A stretch of DNA of 44,711 nt from a virus: positions 1 to 44,711 of IMG/VR virus record IMGVR_UViG_3300008120_000085. One strand, written 5' to 3'. Position numbers and translations under genes: made by a program. Below are positions 8,464 through 25,030 of this stretch, in pieces (position 1 is the first letter of the stretch; each line of letters begins with the position of its first letter). The notes under the pieces were generated by a model that worked only from the letters and a program-made list of their open reading frames with translations, ran no database searches and had not been told where the DNA came from.

Positions 8464-9063
8464 TTACAAAATACTATTATCAACAAACGAATAATATCCG
8501 TCAATAGTTATAATTAAATGTTCAAGTAGTTTTAAATCAAGTACATCTGCTGCTAACTTTATCTTCTTAGTAAGAGTAATGTCATCCTGAGATGGATTTA
8601 TATTACCACTAGGATGGTTATGCGCAATGATAAAACCAGACACACGATTGTGTTCTAATATCTTTTTGAACAATATCTTAGTGTCAACAACAGTTGCAGA
8701 TACACCGCCTTTAGAAATCTGTATGGGCTTGCAGATAGCTACATTGTTTCTAGTCAATGGTAGGAAGTAAAACTCTTCGTGATTCAATAATCCCATGAAC
8801 TTGAAATACTGGTAGCAATCATTACTTCTAGTTATCTGTGCGTTGTTTATGTCAGCCGGCACAATATTCTTTGCAAGATGTAGTTTTCTGGCACCTGATT
8901 TACTAAGCCCAATTTTTAAATAATCCTCTTCAGATGCAATCAAAGCTACATACTCATTGGGAAAATAGCCATATAGTTTTTCTGTGTCCTTGACGCCAAT
9001 AAGCTCTTGGATTAGTTCTTTATTAGGCTTTTTGTAGTCTGATTCGCTTTCTCTGAATATCAT
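8464..9063 (-). CDS. RadC-like JAMM/MPN domain protein (199 aa)
   Basis: The C-terminal domain holds a complete JAMM metal motif: His148-x-His150, PSGNINP, then Ser158-x-x-Asp161, with an upstream Glu in the HEEFYFLPLT strand (residues 95-104). This matches RadC-family DNA-repair-associated proteins, which usually carry an N-terminal HhH domain and are slightly longer; here residues 40-70 (YVALIAS, KSGARKLHLAKNI) could be a diverged HhH region. The biochemical role of RadC proteins is not settled; a peptidase- or nuclease-like zinc enzyme is possible. ATG 9061-9063 overlaps the upstream stop by 4 nt (ATGA), preferred over a TTG at 9084. Confidence 0.85.
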   Translation of the reverse strand: MIFRESESDYKKPNKELIQELIGVKDTEKLYGYFPNEYVALIASEEDYLKIGLSKSGARKLHLAKNIVPADINNAQITRSNDCYQYFKFMGLLNHEEFYFLPLTRNNVAICKPIQISKGGVSATVVDTKILFKKILEHNRVSGFIIAHNHPSGNINPSQDDITLTKKIKLAADVLDLKLLEHLIITIDGYYSFVDNSIL

Positions 9064-9686: not shown

Positions 9687-11725
9687 TAGCCGATAACTTG
9701 ATATTTGTTCTTATCATTTTTGTAAGCAAATGCTGTCTTAAAGTTAAAGCATTCTTTCACTTTCGTAAAGAACGAAACAAACATTGCCCTTCTTCTCTGC
9801 TCTGTATCACTAGACTTAATGATGCCTTTGATATCAAATGTCTGCAACATAGCATTTGCATTGACAAAGTTATGCTCGTGCATTAAACTAGCAAGTTCTT
9901 TCATTTTGGCATTTAAATCAGTGCCATTAAGAGTTTCCTCTTTAGTTGCGGCATTAAACATTTCAGCGCCTTTTTCCTGACAAAGTTTTATCATTGCAAG
10001 GCCTGCAAGCATACTATCAGTATCGGCATCATCATCGATAGTGTTTAGTATCTGATTTACTAGATTCTTAACACGCATTCTCATAATAAACTCACTACCC
10101 TTGTATGGAATACCAATGTTTTTACAGATGTAAGTAAGCAATGCCTCATCAGCTTCGTCAATAGAATTGTACATGCTTTTGCCTGTTTCGTAGACATTGA
10201 TATAGCACATATCTGCAACAAACATACGTCTAGTTTTAGCATCGTCGTCAATCTCTTCAGATTTTTCTGTTGCTTTCTCGGTCATATCTGCACGCTTTAA
10301 CTCAATGTAGCCATACTCATTTTCGTATTCTTTCTCTAAATCAATGTTGTTGTCTTTAAAGAACATACTAAGAACATTAGGAGAATAGGATGCCATTGTC
10401 ATTAGATTGGCCTGCAAAAACACAGTCATTGCATACGATGCTCCGGCTTTGTCAACAAGGTCTACGCCATTGCTAATGCTATCATCAAGCAAGTGATCTA
10501 TACAAGCTTTCAATGTATTATTGATATGCATACCTTTAAAGAAAGCAAGTACAGCATAATCTAGTGATGCTCCATCTTGATTAAGTCGCTTCATCAATTT
10601 AAATACAACATCTTTTCTTGCTTGTTCTTTCAAACTAGTAATCTTACGATTAACGCGCTCAATAGCAGCATCTTGCTTTTTCTCTACATAGCTTTCTTCT
10701 GCTTTGACACTTTCAATCAAAGATGGCTTGACAAAGAACTTGATGCTACCATCATAATCCCAGCAAGCAACCTCTTCAGGATGTGTACCCATATCACATG
10801 GGACGTAGCCCATAATAGAATATCTATCAACGATTTTGAGTTTGTTATCATCGATAAACTTTTCCCAGTATGCTCTTGCTCTATCTTTTGTAGCATCACT
10901 ATCAGATGTTCTTGGCCTATCAAACATATTACCTACATTGATATACCATTTCTCTTCTTTAATATTTGGATGCACATTGCCATATAAATCAACAAAGCTT
11001 TCTTCAGGAACACTTTCAGATATTTCCGGCATGCAGTAGTTAGACAATCTTACTATTTCGCTGTCATCAAGTGCTTCTCCTTCTGTATGCAAATCACGAT
11101 CATAAATCTCTTCAATAATCATTTTCTGAACAGCATCAGGCATATCGCACAATGCAGTGGCACCAGACTCATCGATAACACCCTCAAAGCAGAGCTTGAT
11201 AGCTTCTTTGTTTAATGCTGCTATCTTACGAAGAGATGTTGCTCTATTGACAGAAATGCCAAGCTGACTAGCAATCTTTGGCAGTGTTACACCTTTGACA
11301 GCAACAGCCTGTCTTATTGCATGGGCCAGTGTAATAAAGTGCTGCTCACTACGAAGTACATTCTCAGTTAATGAATCGACAATGTTAATGCCATCCATGA
11401 TATAGACTGGTATCTCTGCAGTTACTCCAATCTCCTTACACAACTCTTCATAACGAGTGACAAATGTCATTGCTCTAGTATAACCGGCACGAACAACATA
11501 CTTGCCTTTTACTTGCTCGCAGATGATTGGCTGCAGTAATAATGAACCAGTCTTTTTGTAGGTCTCGACCATTGAACCATACATCTTATCAATAGCATCA
11601 CCATATGGAGTAGCATCATTTACGTCATAATCTATGCCGGCAAACCTAGGATTAGGTATAGAAAAGTCAAGCAAATCTGGAGTTACTTTCAACATTTCGT
11701 TTTTAATTTTAATATTAGAAGCCAT
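9686..11725 (-). CDS. parB: Large ParB-like DNA-binding protein (679 aa)
   Basis: The N-terminal 175 residues match the ParB/Spo0J core: a LLLQPIICEQVKGKYVVRAGYTRAM segment (65-86; GYTRA at the place of the GERRxRA CTP-binding box), LTENVLRSEQH (119-129; equivalent of ENLQRxDL), and an HTH around TLPKIASQLGISVNRATSL (147-165). ParB proteins bind parS and load as CTP-dependent clamps. The remaining 500 residues are helical, acidic and unfamiliar, making it about twice the usual ParB length. No ParA is visible in the window. It follows the SSB and ERF genes, so it may serve genome partition, recombination or replication control. A parS-like palindrome lies at 21528-21543. It appears to have its own unit, as a terminator sits just upstream. 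Confidence 0.8.
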   Translation of the reverse strand: MASNIKIKNEMLKVTPDLLDFSIPNPRFAGIDYDVNDATPYGDAIDKMYGSMVETYKKTGSLLLQPIICEQVKGKYVVRAGYTRAMTFVTRYEELCKEIGVTAEIPVYIMDGINIVDSLTENVLRSEQHFITLAHAIRQAVAVKGVTLPKIASQLGISVNRATSLRKIAALNKEAIKLCFEGVIDESGATALCDMPDAVQKMIIEEIYDRDLHTEGEALDDSEIVRLSNYCMPEISESVPEESFVDLYGNVHPNIKEEKWYINVGNMFDRPRTSDSDATKDRARAYWEKFIDDNKLKIVDRYSIMGYVPCDMGTHPEEVACWDYDGSIKFFVKPSLIESVKAEESYVEKKQDAAIERVNRKITSLKEQARKDVVFKLMKRLNQDGASLDYAVLAFFKGMHINNTLKACIDHLLDDSISNGVDLVDKAGASYAMTVFLQANLMTMASYSPNVLSMFFKDNNIDLEKEYENEYGYIELKRADMTEKATEKSEEIDDDAKTRRMFVADMCYINVYETGKSMYNSIDEADEALLTYICKNIGIPYKGSEFIMRMRVKNLVNQILNTIDDDADTDSMLAGLAMIKLCQEKGAEMFNAATKEETLNGTDLNAKMKELASLMHEHNFVNANAMLQTFDIKGIIKSSDTEQRRRAMFVSFFTKVKECFNFKTAFAYKNDKNKYQVIG

Positions 11726-22662: not shown

Positions 22663-22965
22663 ATGATGTCTATATTGGAATATTTGGAATGGCGTGGTGT
22701 CAATGTTGATGACCATGAGGAGCGTATGTGGTGGATTGGCTGGGAGGATGCTCATTGTATGGGTAGGAGTTATGATGGCTGGAAGGATTTAAGTAGTAGT
22801 TCTGATGGTCGTTATGAGAAGTTTGCTGCATTGGTTGTAGATTACTTGCTTTATTGTAAGGTTGCTGCTGAGAATGTTAGCAATCATTATGTTTATAATG
22901 AGCCGGGGGTATCTTATGAGGAAGTGGTTGTTGGTTGCCAGAGGGGAGGGGCTTGTCATGAATAG
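22663..22965 (+). CDS. Small Trp-rich unknown protein (100 aa)
   Basis: ATG at 22663 (a second ATG follows immediately). The N-terminal half is unusually rich in Trp and acidic residues (LEWRGVNVDDHEERMWWIGWEDAHCMG), the middle has a helix FAALVVDYLLYCKVAAENV. The start lies 4 nt after the upstream stop and the end overlaps the next gene by 8 nt. No family recognised. Same G/T-rich codon use as its neighbours. Confidence 0.68.
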   Translation: MMSILEYLEWRGVNVDDHEERMWWIGWEDAHCMGRSYDGWKDLSSSSDGRYEKFAALVVDYLLYCKVAAENVSNHYVYNEPGVSYEEVVVGCQRGGACHE

Positions 22966-23290
22966 GTCTTTGCTTGTTTACGGTAGCATTACTGCTGTGA
23001 GTTTGGTGTTTATGGCGATGCAGATAGCTTTTACCAGGTATAGTATTGTAAGGAATGATCAGTTACAGGATAAGATTGACAAGATTAACACTGATTTACG
23101 TGTTTTAGATGTTGAGGTTAGGATGAGAGATAGTATGTTGGTTAGGAGTATTGAGAGTAGTTATAGGAAGATAGAGGAACTGACAGAGATTCGTAAGATG
23201 AACCAGAAGCAGATTGATAGTTTACATGATGTTATCTTAGATGACATTAAGGTGATAGAGGATTTAAAGGATGACTTGTTAAGATGGTAG
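22958..23290 (+). CDS. Membrane-anchored coiled-coil protein (110 aa)
   Basis: The start at ATG 22958, preceded by a purine-rich GAGGGGAGGGG, gives MNRSLLVYGSITAVSLVFMAMQIAF, a single N-terminal membrane segment; an earlier in-frame ATG would read through the upstream gene and lacks such a site. The rest (about residues 32-110) is a long charged coiled coil (DKIDKINTDLRVLDVEV, MNQKQIDSLHDVILDDIK). The topology (N-terminal anchor, periplasmic coiled coil) resembles an i-spanin, but position in an early-type module argues for caution. Confidence 0.68.
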   Translation: MNRSLLVYGSITAVSLVFMAMQIAFTRYSIVRNDQLQDKIDKINTDLRVLDVEVRMRDSMLVRSIESSYRKIEELTEIRKMNQKQIDSLHDVILDDIKVIEDLKDDLLRW

Positions 23291-23321: not shown

Positions 23322-24158
23322 ATGTTCGAAACTAAGGTTTATGACACGCTCGTAACTAAGATGCGGGCTTTTTTTAGGGGCAGAGGATTCAAGGAAGTTC
23401 CTACTCAGTCGAGGTTGTCTATACTTGCGGCATGTGAGAATCCGCATAGTATTGCTACTTTTAATTACAATGGCGATGTCTGGCCTTTGCCTCAGACTGG
23501 ACAGATGTGGCTAGAGCATGAGTTGCTTAATAACCCTGAATGGGAGGGAGTGTATTGCATTAGTACTAGTTACAGGCAGGAGAAGAATCCGATACCCGGT
23601 CGGCATGAGTTAATATTTCCTATGTTTGAGTTTGAGAGCAAAGGGAATATGAATGTGATGCTAGAACTTGAAAAGGACTTGTTGCAGTATCTAGGTTTTA
23701 GCACTGGTGTTGATGTTGACTATGACGATATCTGTGTTGCCTATGGTACTGATATTATTGAGAATGAGCATGAGTCAAGGTTGAGAGATGAGCAGGGCGA
23801 TGTTGTATTCTTGAAAAACTTTCCATTGCGCACTAATCCTTTCTGGAACATGTACTGCAAGTATGCTGACATCTATGCCAAGTGTGATGTCATCATGTAT
23901 GGGCAGGAAACTATTGGTTCAGCACAGAGAAGCAGTGATCCAGAGAAGATGCGCGAGAACTTTTACACGATTGAAGGTGGCAAGTATGCCGAGAAGTTGT
24001 TTGAGTTGTTTACTGAAAAAAGAGTTGTTGCTGAACTAGATAAGTTTTTGCAGCATAAGTTCTTTGATCGTTTTGGTGGTGGCATCGGAATGACCAGATT
24101 AGCAAGAGCCTGGAATATCAAGGAGTTTGAAAATAAAATACAGGATGCCCGGGTATGA
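23322..24158 (+). CDS. Class II aminoacyl-tRNA-synthetase-like catalytic core (stand-alone)
   Basis: 278 aa. Motif 2 is clear: VYCISTSYRQEKNPIPGRHE (77-96) with Arg85, Glu87, Arg94 and then FPMFEFE, as in the Asp/Asn/Lys-tRNA synthetase group. Motif 3 is DRFGGGIGMTRLARAW (249-264), Arg259 as the ATP-binding Arg. Residues 54-65 (WPLPQTGQMWLE) match the substrate-binding QTxQ-type helix. There is no N-terminal OB anticodon-binding domain; the protein starts directly in the catalytic region. Relatives lacking that domain include asparagine synthetase A and archaeal AspRS-like asparagine synthetases, and EpmA-type protein-modifying enzymes. So it may activate an amino acid (Asp, Asn or Lys) for synthesis or for modification. 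Substrate unknown. Confidence 0.82.
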   Translation: MFETKVYDTLVTKMRAFFRGRGFKEVPTQSRLSILAACENPHSIATFNYNGDVWPLPQTGQMWLEHELLNNPEWEGVYCISTSYRQEKNPIPGRHELIFPMFEFESKGNMNVMLELEKDLLQYLGFSTGVDVDYDDICVAYGTDIIENEHESRLRDEQGDVVFLKNFPLRTNPFWNMYCKYADIYAKCDVIMYGQETIGSAQRSSDPEKMRENFYTIEGGKYAEKLFELFTEKRVVAELDKFLQHKFFDRFGGGIGMTRLARAWNIKEFENKIQDARV

Positions 24159-24616
24159 AAGTAATATTGTTTTTACTGCTTCCTCTACTGGCATATAGTC
24201 AGTTTGATACGGTTCATGTGTATGGTGATATTAGCATATCCTATATGACAAGAAAAGATACTGTACTTATATCTGCTAAGAAGTGGAATGATGTTATTGG
24301 AATTATTAGATCTAAGGAAAAGACTATTGGTGATTATAAGAGTATCATTGATAAGAATGAAAATACTATTAGGTCTTTTGATTTTCAGATAGCAGAACAC
24401 AAGAGTATAGAGCGAACTTTAGAGGAACGAGTAGGTACTTACCAACGTGCGTACAATATGAGTTCTGATAAGATAATTGAGTTAAATAATCTTTGGCAGC
24501 AGGGCATGAAATATGCTAATAATGAGCGAAAAAGAGGTATCTTTACAGGAGTAACCTGGGGTATTATCGGAGGGTTTGCAGCAGGGATTATTACTACAGT
24601 TATTTTATTAAAGTAA
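24155..24616 (+). CDS. Exported coiled-coil protein with C-terminal membrane anchor (153 aa)
   Basis: ATG overlaps the aaRS-like stop (ATGA). MKVILFLLLPLLAYS-Q is a Bacteroidetes-type signal peptide. The mature part starts with strands (VHVYGDISISYMTRKDTV), continues as a coiled coil (residues about 47-115) and ends in a 21-residue hydrophobic segment (TWGIIGGFAAGIITTVILLK). The layout suits a periplasmic bridge between membranes. No family recognised; envelope remodelling or spanin-like action is conceivable. Confidence 0.7.
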   Translation: MKVILFLLLPLLAYSQFDTVHVYGDISISYMTRKDTVLISAKKWNDVIGIIRSKEKTIGDYKSIIDKNENTIRSFDFQIAEHKSIERTLEERVGTYQRAYNMSSDKIIELNNLWQQGMKYANNERKRGIFTGVTWGIIGGFAAGIITTVILLK

Positions 24617-24619
24617 AAC

Positions 24620-25030
24620 ATGGAACTAGACTTGTATTTGGACATTGAGCCGATTGGTGCCGTAAGGACTACACAGAAACAGATGTATGCTGACAAGCGT
24701 TACAAGAAATATATGGCCTGGAAGGACGATATTAGAATCTTGTGGAACGCAGAACTTATTAAGCTTGGAATAAAACCAGACGAGTTTAAGTTTTCTGAAA
24801 TAAAAAGTATTACATTTGTGGTAACAATTCCAATGAGCCAGACATTAAGCAAATCAAAAATGAAAGAACGTGAGGAAAGGATTGATATGCCGCATCAGAT
24901 GAAGCCGGATATTGATAATATGCTCAAAGCTTTTATGGATGCGCTAATGAAAGAAGATAGTCATGTTCATACCATTGGTAAAATGACTAAAATCTGGGGT
25001 GTACATGGTCATATTAAGGTGGTCATATAG
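24620..25030 (+). CDS. rusA: RusA-family Holliday junction resolvase
   Basis: 136 aa, the usual RusA length. The signature KPDIDNMLKAFMDALMKE (95-112) supplies the conserved Asp residues (Asp97, Asp99, Asp107) that bind Mg2+ for cleavage of four-way junctions. The N-terminus has the expected IEPIGAVRTTQKQMYADKRYKKY segment with Lys/Arg for DNA contact. It would resolve recombination and replication intermediates before packaging, complementing ERF and SSB. It is the last gene of its transcript, ending 25 nt before a strong terminator. Confidence 0.9.
   Translation: MELDLYLDIEPIGAVRTTQKQMYADKRYKKYMAWKDDIRILWNAELIKLGIKPDEFKFSEIKSITFVVTIPMSQTLSKSKMKEREERIDMPHQMKPDIDNMLKAFMDALMKEDSHVHTIGKMTKIWGVHGHIKVVI

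Follow-up and report, generated by a model that had tools for sequence, protein, structure and literature searches.

A stand-alone class II aminoacyl-tRNA synthetase-like core shared by phages and prokaryotes, probably an enzyme of pyrimidine nucleotide synthesis

The gene at positions 23322–24158 of the window (the whole 44,711-nucleotide stretch of viral DNA analysed, IMG/VR record IMGVR_UViG_3300008120_000085) encodes a stand-alone class IIb aminoacyl-tRNA synthetase (aaRS) core, and the family of such cores to which it belongs, given the working name CORE, adjoins late pyrimidine genes in genomes from which the customary early steps are missing; its probable task is thus to produce an RNA and DNA building block. 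The balance of evidence leans towards CORE being an aaRS-derived, ATP-dependent enzyme that feeds orotate/UMP synthesis without carbamoyl phosphate and that boosts the pyrimidine supply in phages. The observations behind this explanation are the fold, the stand-alone architecture, a pocket that keeps its residues for ATP and amino acid, the linkage to pyrD, pyrE and pyrF in cells, and the missing CarAB–PyrB–PyrC in nearly all sampled CORE genomes. The family is real, widespread and unstudied in the open-access PMC literature, and its membership of the pyrimidine pathway, which was not considered in the initial annotation and is indicated by neighbourhoods and co-occurrence, is rather likely; what is new is the proposed pathway role, the fold being of a familiar type. 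A search of the open-access PMC literature returned no paper linking an aaRS-like protein to dihydroorotate or to a bypass of carAB-pyrB-pyrC, and a passage of a 2026 article (PMC13260591) still calls carbamoyl phosphate a pyrimidine precursor in all domains of life.

The open reading frame starts with ATG, is intact, is more than a chance frame and is under selection: a 278-codon open frame is expected by chance about 1e-4 times in the window, and the gene differs from that of a 97%-identical relative (L006) by 53 silent and nine replacement codons. The protein matches Pfam tRNA-synt_2 (D, K and N) at E=8.8e-13 (48.4 bits against a cut-off of 25) and the profile of PHROG 29758, a family of function unknown, at E=2.5e-88 over residues 3–263 of 278, which together with the motifs bears out the class II core with motifs 2 and 3 that had been read at this place. 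The features of the gene are as follows.

23322..24158, + strand: CORE, stand-alone class II aaRS-like core (PHROG 29758), 278 aa, by Pfam, PHROG and structure model
23421..23450, + strand: flipping-loop equivalent ILAACENPHS, residues 34–43; C38 and P41 in 162/162 sequences, E39 in 161/162
23484..23516, + strand: PLPQTGQMWLE, residues 55–65; E65 in 162/162, aligned with the Glu of AsnRS QLYLE
23562..23636, + strand: motif 2 (STSYRQEKNPIPGRHELIFPMFEFE), residues 81–105; R85 and E87 aligned with human AsnRS R322 and E324, H95 and F99 invariant
23841..23852, + strand: family-specific FWNM, residues 174–177; N176 in 162/162, AsnRS and AspRS differing there
23901..23930, + strand: GQETIGSAQR, residues 194–203; E196 (metal-site position) and R203 (Arg of GSQR/GSVR) in 162/162
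24069..24098, + strand: motif 3 (RFGGGIGMTRLARAW, RFGGGIGMTR), residues 250–259; R259 in 162/162, R250 family-specific

The tRNA-synt_2 match starts at residue 9, leaving no N-terminal extension, and no OB anticodon-binding domain was found in the window protein or in any homologue recovered; an OB domain in the homologues, which would have marked the gene as a fragment, was thus not observed. Since all 162 full-length relatives are equally short (median 281 aa, 161/162 of them at most 330 aa), CORE is a stand-alone core and no fragment, in agreement with the initial annotation, which was also right that the window holds no tRNA gene (no tRNA or other Rfam family was found within it). The exported coiled-coil frame downstream (24155–24616) does overlap the gene by ATGA, but this coupling carries little weight: in most of 80 viral relatives, the first 60 nt beyond the 3' end of the gene are occupied by a terminator-like hairpin or by intergenic or other sequence. 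That downstream protein has a signal peptide and a C-terminal anchor, and the one upstream (22959–23290) is a coiled-coil protein with an N-terminal anchor, both looking spanin- or holin-like by eye; further downstream, 24620–25030 encodes a RusA-family Holliday junction resolvase (PF05866, E=8e-8; PHROG 140, E=3e-13).

Structure prediction and structural search, the check that had been proposed for this protein, were carried out on an AlphaFold2 model built from 27 sequences (pLDDT 91.7, pTM 0.89). The best match is AsnRS (Z 27.2, 2.1 Å over 245 residues), followed by AspRS (Z 26.3), AS-AR (3rex, Z 24.2, 2.6 Å over 240 residues) and EpmA (Z 23), and the best-matching entries are AsnRS structures with bound adenylate. 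The window protein nevertheless belongs to no characterised family, with AsnRS nearest by fold: the AsnRS (TIGR00457, NF003037) and AspRS (NF003483) models score 25.7–28.7 bits against cut-offs of 342.6–414, the AS-AR model (NF005053) 17 bits against 322 and the EpmA model (TIGR00462) 13 bits against 286.9, and asparagine synthetase and EpmA were rejected as its identity on these scores. CORE shares with the AsnRS catalytic domain the fold, the motif 2 and 3 residues, the flipping-loop Glu and the QxxQ...E motif, but it lacks the OB domain, has a changed flipping loop (CENPxS) and its own FWNM and R250, has lost the TVPHS segment, and reaches 28.7 bits against 414. The AS-AR structures 3p8t and 3rl6 are likewise stand-alone class IIb cores of near length, and EpmA (GenX/PoxA) is a stand-alone class II core acting outside translation; both differ from CORE in model score, and also in context, as CORE is linked to pyrimidine synthesis genes in cells. 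PHROG 29758 and the cyanophage cluster T4-GC 194 are the same family (50% identity to the P-SSM7 protein) and come without an assigned function, 'tRNA ligase' being a generic annotation.

Residue equivalences were taken from HMMER (human and Brugia AsnRS) and MAFFT alignments, with conservation counted over 162 sequences. R85, E87, F99, D189, E196, R203 and R259 are invariant in 162/162, the motif 2 and motif 3 arginines of the class II signature (R85 and R259) thus both being present throughout, and the pocket residues E39, Q58, E65, R85, E87, R203 and R259 are invariant or nearly so. All ATP-site residues are kept, and the broken ATP pocket on which the initial reading would have fallen was not observed. 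Invariant or near-invariant residues peculiar to the family are C38, FWNM, K187 and R250, the last lying where aaRSs show a His region. E39 falls on human AsnRS E279, a residue in contact with the asparagine moiety of Asn-AMP, and human R322 and E324 contact the phosphate and the adenylate part of the same molecule, respectively (PMC10831071). AspRS has Gln at the position matching E65, and residue 50, upstream of PLPQTGQMWLE and variable in CORE (S, A, N, Q, G), matches a Lys in the E. coli AspRS flipping loop. These two positions would separate Asn from Asp recognition, which provides a lead, and judged from the alignments the CORE pocket resembles that of AsnRS more than that of AspRS. The reading as an intact stand-alone class IIb core that keeps its ATP-site residues and most likely acts outside translation is supported; the particular roles suggested for it (supply of asparagine, modification of a host factor such as an elongation factor, or counter-defence) are not favoured, for the reasons given with each below.

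At about 45–51% identity, relatives of CORE occur in the Prochlorococcus phages P-SSM2, P-SSM5 and P-SSM7, where they are annotated just 'tRNA ligase', and in huge phages (484 and 735 kb); the IMG/VR stretches that encode relatives number at least 598. A scan of GTDB genomes gave 128 relatives, the matches listed being 50–64% identical to the window protein, and the cellular bearers comprise Patescibacteria, DPANN archaea, Dependentiae/Babeliales, Chlamydiota, Midichloriaceae, Gammaproteobacteria, Myxococcota and Bacteroidota. The window protein falls within a mostly viral clade of the tree, and since P-SSM2 and P-SSM7 branch apart from it, beside an alphaproteobacterial protein, phages have probably acquired CORE more than once.

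The surroundings of CORE in cells were surveyed at 80 loci by clustering the neighbouring frames and identifying them with NCBIfam, and the chief neighbours are orotate phosphoribosyltransferase and dihydroorotate dehydrogenase. PyrD, PyrE or PyrF lies within 5 kb at 27 of the 80 loci (within 1.5 kb at 25), in several phyla, with any of CarA, CarB, PyrB and PyrC near CORE at one locus only. The arrangements include CORE-pyrF-pyrE-pyrD-prs-transketolase in Midichloriaceae (L104, L112 and L121, whose small PyrE and PyrD are under the NCBIfam cut-off); CORE-pyrE-pyrF-pckA in Gammaproteobacteria (L131); divergent pyrEF followed by pyrD-CORE in Bacteroidota (L144, L115); pyrF, CORE, pyrD, pyrE at L164; and pyrD-pyrE-pyrF-argH-CORE in Parcubacteria (L126). 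The linkage is no single inherited block, since the arrangements vary (same-strand operons, divergent genes, CORE flanked by pyrF and pyrD) and the CORE tree calls for at least nine changes of the linked state. Near CORE, PyrG was met once and Prs three times, AsnB, carbonic anhydrase and AsnA were not found, and 86 viral stretches showed no linkage to PyrD, PyrE or PyrF.

The co-occurrence sample comprised 50 CORE genomes, mostly MAGs of unstated completeness, and 14 controls. ATCase/PyrB (TIGR00670) was over the cut-off in 2/50 CORE genomes, both Coatesbacteria, and in 14/14 controls, with any carbamoyltransferase-like match wholly absent from 46/50; CarB (TIGR01369), the large subunit of carbamoyl-phosphate synthetase, was over the cut-off in 2/50, plus one split gene slightly under, and in 14/14 controls; DHOase/PyrC (TIGR00857) passed in 2/50, the same Coatesbacteria that have PyrB, and dimeric-type PyrC in 0/50. 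The late enzymes are common in the same mostly MAG-derived genomes of unstated completeness, OMP decarboxylase PyrF being present in 40/50 and the PyrD family (PF01180) in 32/50. Ten genomes (G012, G016, G018, G027, G031, G035, G036, G045, G048 and G052) have PyrF and no PF01180 dihydroorotate dehydrogenase over the cut-off, perhaps owing to an unrecognised dehydrogenase or to incomplete bins, and eight, mostly Patescibacteria, have neither. The two Coatesbacteria (G009 and G022, loci L089 and L109) keep PyrB and PyrC together with CORE, CarB being not over the cut-off; G009 has two pyrB-pyrC pairs.

CORE is thus anti-correlated with the canonical early pyrimidine enzymes. Aureispira, with a 7.4 Mb isolate genome, and other large Bacteroidota genomes are not reduced, and in the class of Aureispira (247 genomes) full-length CORE is confined to Aureispira itself, with ATCase over the cut-off in 229/246 others. 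PyrB was found in 0/12 CORE carriers of the Bacteroidota versus 229/246 non-carriers (Fisher p=4e-13, indicative only, as the genomes are not independently sampled). The best PyrC-like gene of the isolate Aureispira CCB-QB1 (261 bits, a sub-threshold PyrC match) was rejected as a DHOase and is an allantoinase (529 bits); sub-threshold PyrC matches occur in other Bacteroidota too, the allantoinase identity being established for the Aureispira gene alone.

Taken with the fold, these patterns suggest that CORE was recruited to pyrimidine nucleotide synthesis from a class IIb aaRS core. It would adenylate an aspartate-family substrate with ATP and yield a precursor for PyrD/PyrE, most simply dihydroorotate, which PyrD, PyrE and PyrF would turn into UMP with the carbamoyl-phosphate route bypassed. 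The presumed product and the downstream partners would be those of the CarAB, PyrB and PyrC route; CORE is homologous to none of these enzymes. As a speculative reaction we propose L-asparagine + CO2 + ATP -> L-dihydroorotate + AMP + PPi, in which the N-carboxylate would be adenylated and the ring then closed by the side-chain amide; asparagine is suggested as substrate because the CORE pocket is nearer to AsnRS than to AspRS, and the reaction is chemically possible since adding a single carbonyl carbon to asparagine gives dihydroorotate. A precedent is dethiobiotin synthetase, where an activated carbamate is closed into a cyclic urea; the poor nucleophilicity of the side-chain amide speaks against this route; carbamoyl-aspartate, or aspartate plus urea, might serve as substrate instead. 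In its fullest form, which we regard as tentative and rather improbable as a whole, the proposal has one enzyme descended from AsnRS standing in for carbamoyl-phosphate synthetase, aspartate carbamoyltransferase and dihydroorotase, with asparagine, CO2 and ATP as inputs and dihydroorotate as product. Among prokaryotes it would serve symbionts, predators and some free-living forms, and hundreds of phages, many of which are large, would carry it as a way round the feedback control of pyrimidine synthesis. If the pathway reading is true, CORE would fill a metabolic hole in CPR bacteria, DPANN archaea, Chlamydiae, Midichloriaceae and others, and a gene carried by several hundred viral contigs or more would gain a function; the reading makes a clear prediction that is testable with a single purified protein.

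Several observations count against the pyrimidine explanation. Many CORE bearers are host-dependent, and a mere loss of carAB-pyrBC is to be expected in such organisms too, although Aureispira and other large Bacteroidota genomes are not reduced; to this are added the tRNA that adjoins CORE in cyanophages, the PyrF and PyrD gaps, the PyrB and PyrC of Coatesbacteria, the freshwater phages lacking PyrD, PyrE and PyrF, and the phages that have PyrE and no CORE.

The first alternative, to which we give a small but appreciable chance, is an ATP-dependent dihydroorotase, in which CORE would adenylate the side-chain carboxylate of N-carbamoyl-L-aspartate and cyclise it, the carbamoyl-aspartate coming from salvage or from a lyase such as an ArgH-like neighbour adding urea to fumarate. 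Such chemistry would be near that of AsnA, which activates a beta-carboxylate, but with PyrB not over the cut-off in 48/50 genomes the substrate has no known source. ArgH adjoins CORE at L087, L088, L094 and L126, at L087 and L094 together with a PRK06886 amidohydrolase of function unknown; this linkage, which the dihydroorotase alternative can claim, is limited to 4 of 80 loci, and argininosuccinate lyase is possibly part of the pathway of CORE. The regions in three of these loci are the following.

L094, 5634–7931: argininosuccinate lyase region beside CORE
L087, 5488–7901: argininosuccinate lyase region beside CORE
L126, 5153–6241: argininosuccinate lyase region beside CORE

An asparagine synthetase of the AS-AR type (Asp + NH3 + ATP -> Asn), with the pyrimidine gene link incidental, appears improbable. 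It would fit the shared stand-alone architecture, the alignment of AS-AR structures at Z ~24 and the PckA neighbours at seven loci, PckA being a source of oxaloacetate/aspartate; yet the AS-A model scores far under its cut-off, the pocket has the AsnRS-type Glu, the flipping-loop Lys of E. coli AspRS is not conserved, and both the pyrDEF linkage and the absence of carAB-pyrBC would be left unexplained. The asparagine supply suggested in the initial annotation is not favoured on the same score and on the pyrimidine context.

That CORE charges or modifies a tRNA is quite unlikely. Directly 3' of CORE, within about 20 nt, P-SSM2, P-SSM5 and P-SSM7 carry a tRNA with a GUU (Asn) anticodon, which would be the partner in cyanophages, at these places.

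L001 (P-SSM2), 10804–10891: GUU-anticodon tRNA 3' of CORE
L002 (P-SSM7), 10796–10882: GUU-anticodon tRNA 3' of CORE
L003 (P-SSM5), 8765–8852: GUU-anticodon tRNA 3' of CORE

The tRNA is odd: its variable arm is long and paired, giving it a class II shape, and its CUGUUUA loop has U37. No other tRNA was found in P-SSM2 or in P-SSM5, which, with the AsnRS-like pocket, speaks for a tRNA substrate. CORE has no anticodon-binding domain, however, and no such adjacent tRNA occurs at the 80 viral and 80 cellular loci or in the window, so that a dedicated AsnRS and tRNA pair was rejected as the general role of CORE. Modification of a host protein in the manner of EpmA, or the countering of a defence based on tRNA or amino acids, is very improbable, in spite of the structural alignment of EpmA and the phage-encoded gene, as the EpmA model is far under its cut-off and cellular CORE sits in chromosomal operons with housekeeping nucleotide genes.

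Under the pyrimidine explanation, phage CORE may be an auxiliary metabolic gene that provides more pyrimidine for DNA replication around the feedback-regulated steps of the host, working with host enzymes or, in cyanophages, with phage PyrE; an enzyme outside CPSase/ATCase feedback control would be useful to a phage. Phage PyrE was searched for by tblastn with gammaproteobacterial and cyanophage PyrE proteins, and among named cyanophage records orotate phosphoribosyltransferase occurs in exactly the six that carry CORE (P-SSM2 three times, P-SSM5, and P-SSM7 twice), against a background of several hundred records with the cyanophage-type T4-like portal. As the six records represent three phages in two genera, this evidence is small in number, and its direction is as predicted. 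Huge phage LR756511 has PyrE without a CORE match, as do several marine single-cell virus fragments, and PyrF in phages is confined to Listeria records. Five large freshwater phage contigs with CORE, in which none of PyrD, PyrE, PyrF, PyrB, PyrC, CarA and CarB was found, would for that reason rely on the host. An ArgH-like match beside CORE in one large freshwater phage (G007; L231, 15008–17519) was rejected as ArgH and is the adenylosuccinate lyase gene purB, which precedes CORE by about 1 kb, and in P-SSM2 purH lies about 5 kb upstream of CORE.
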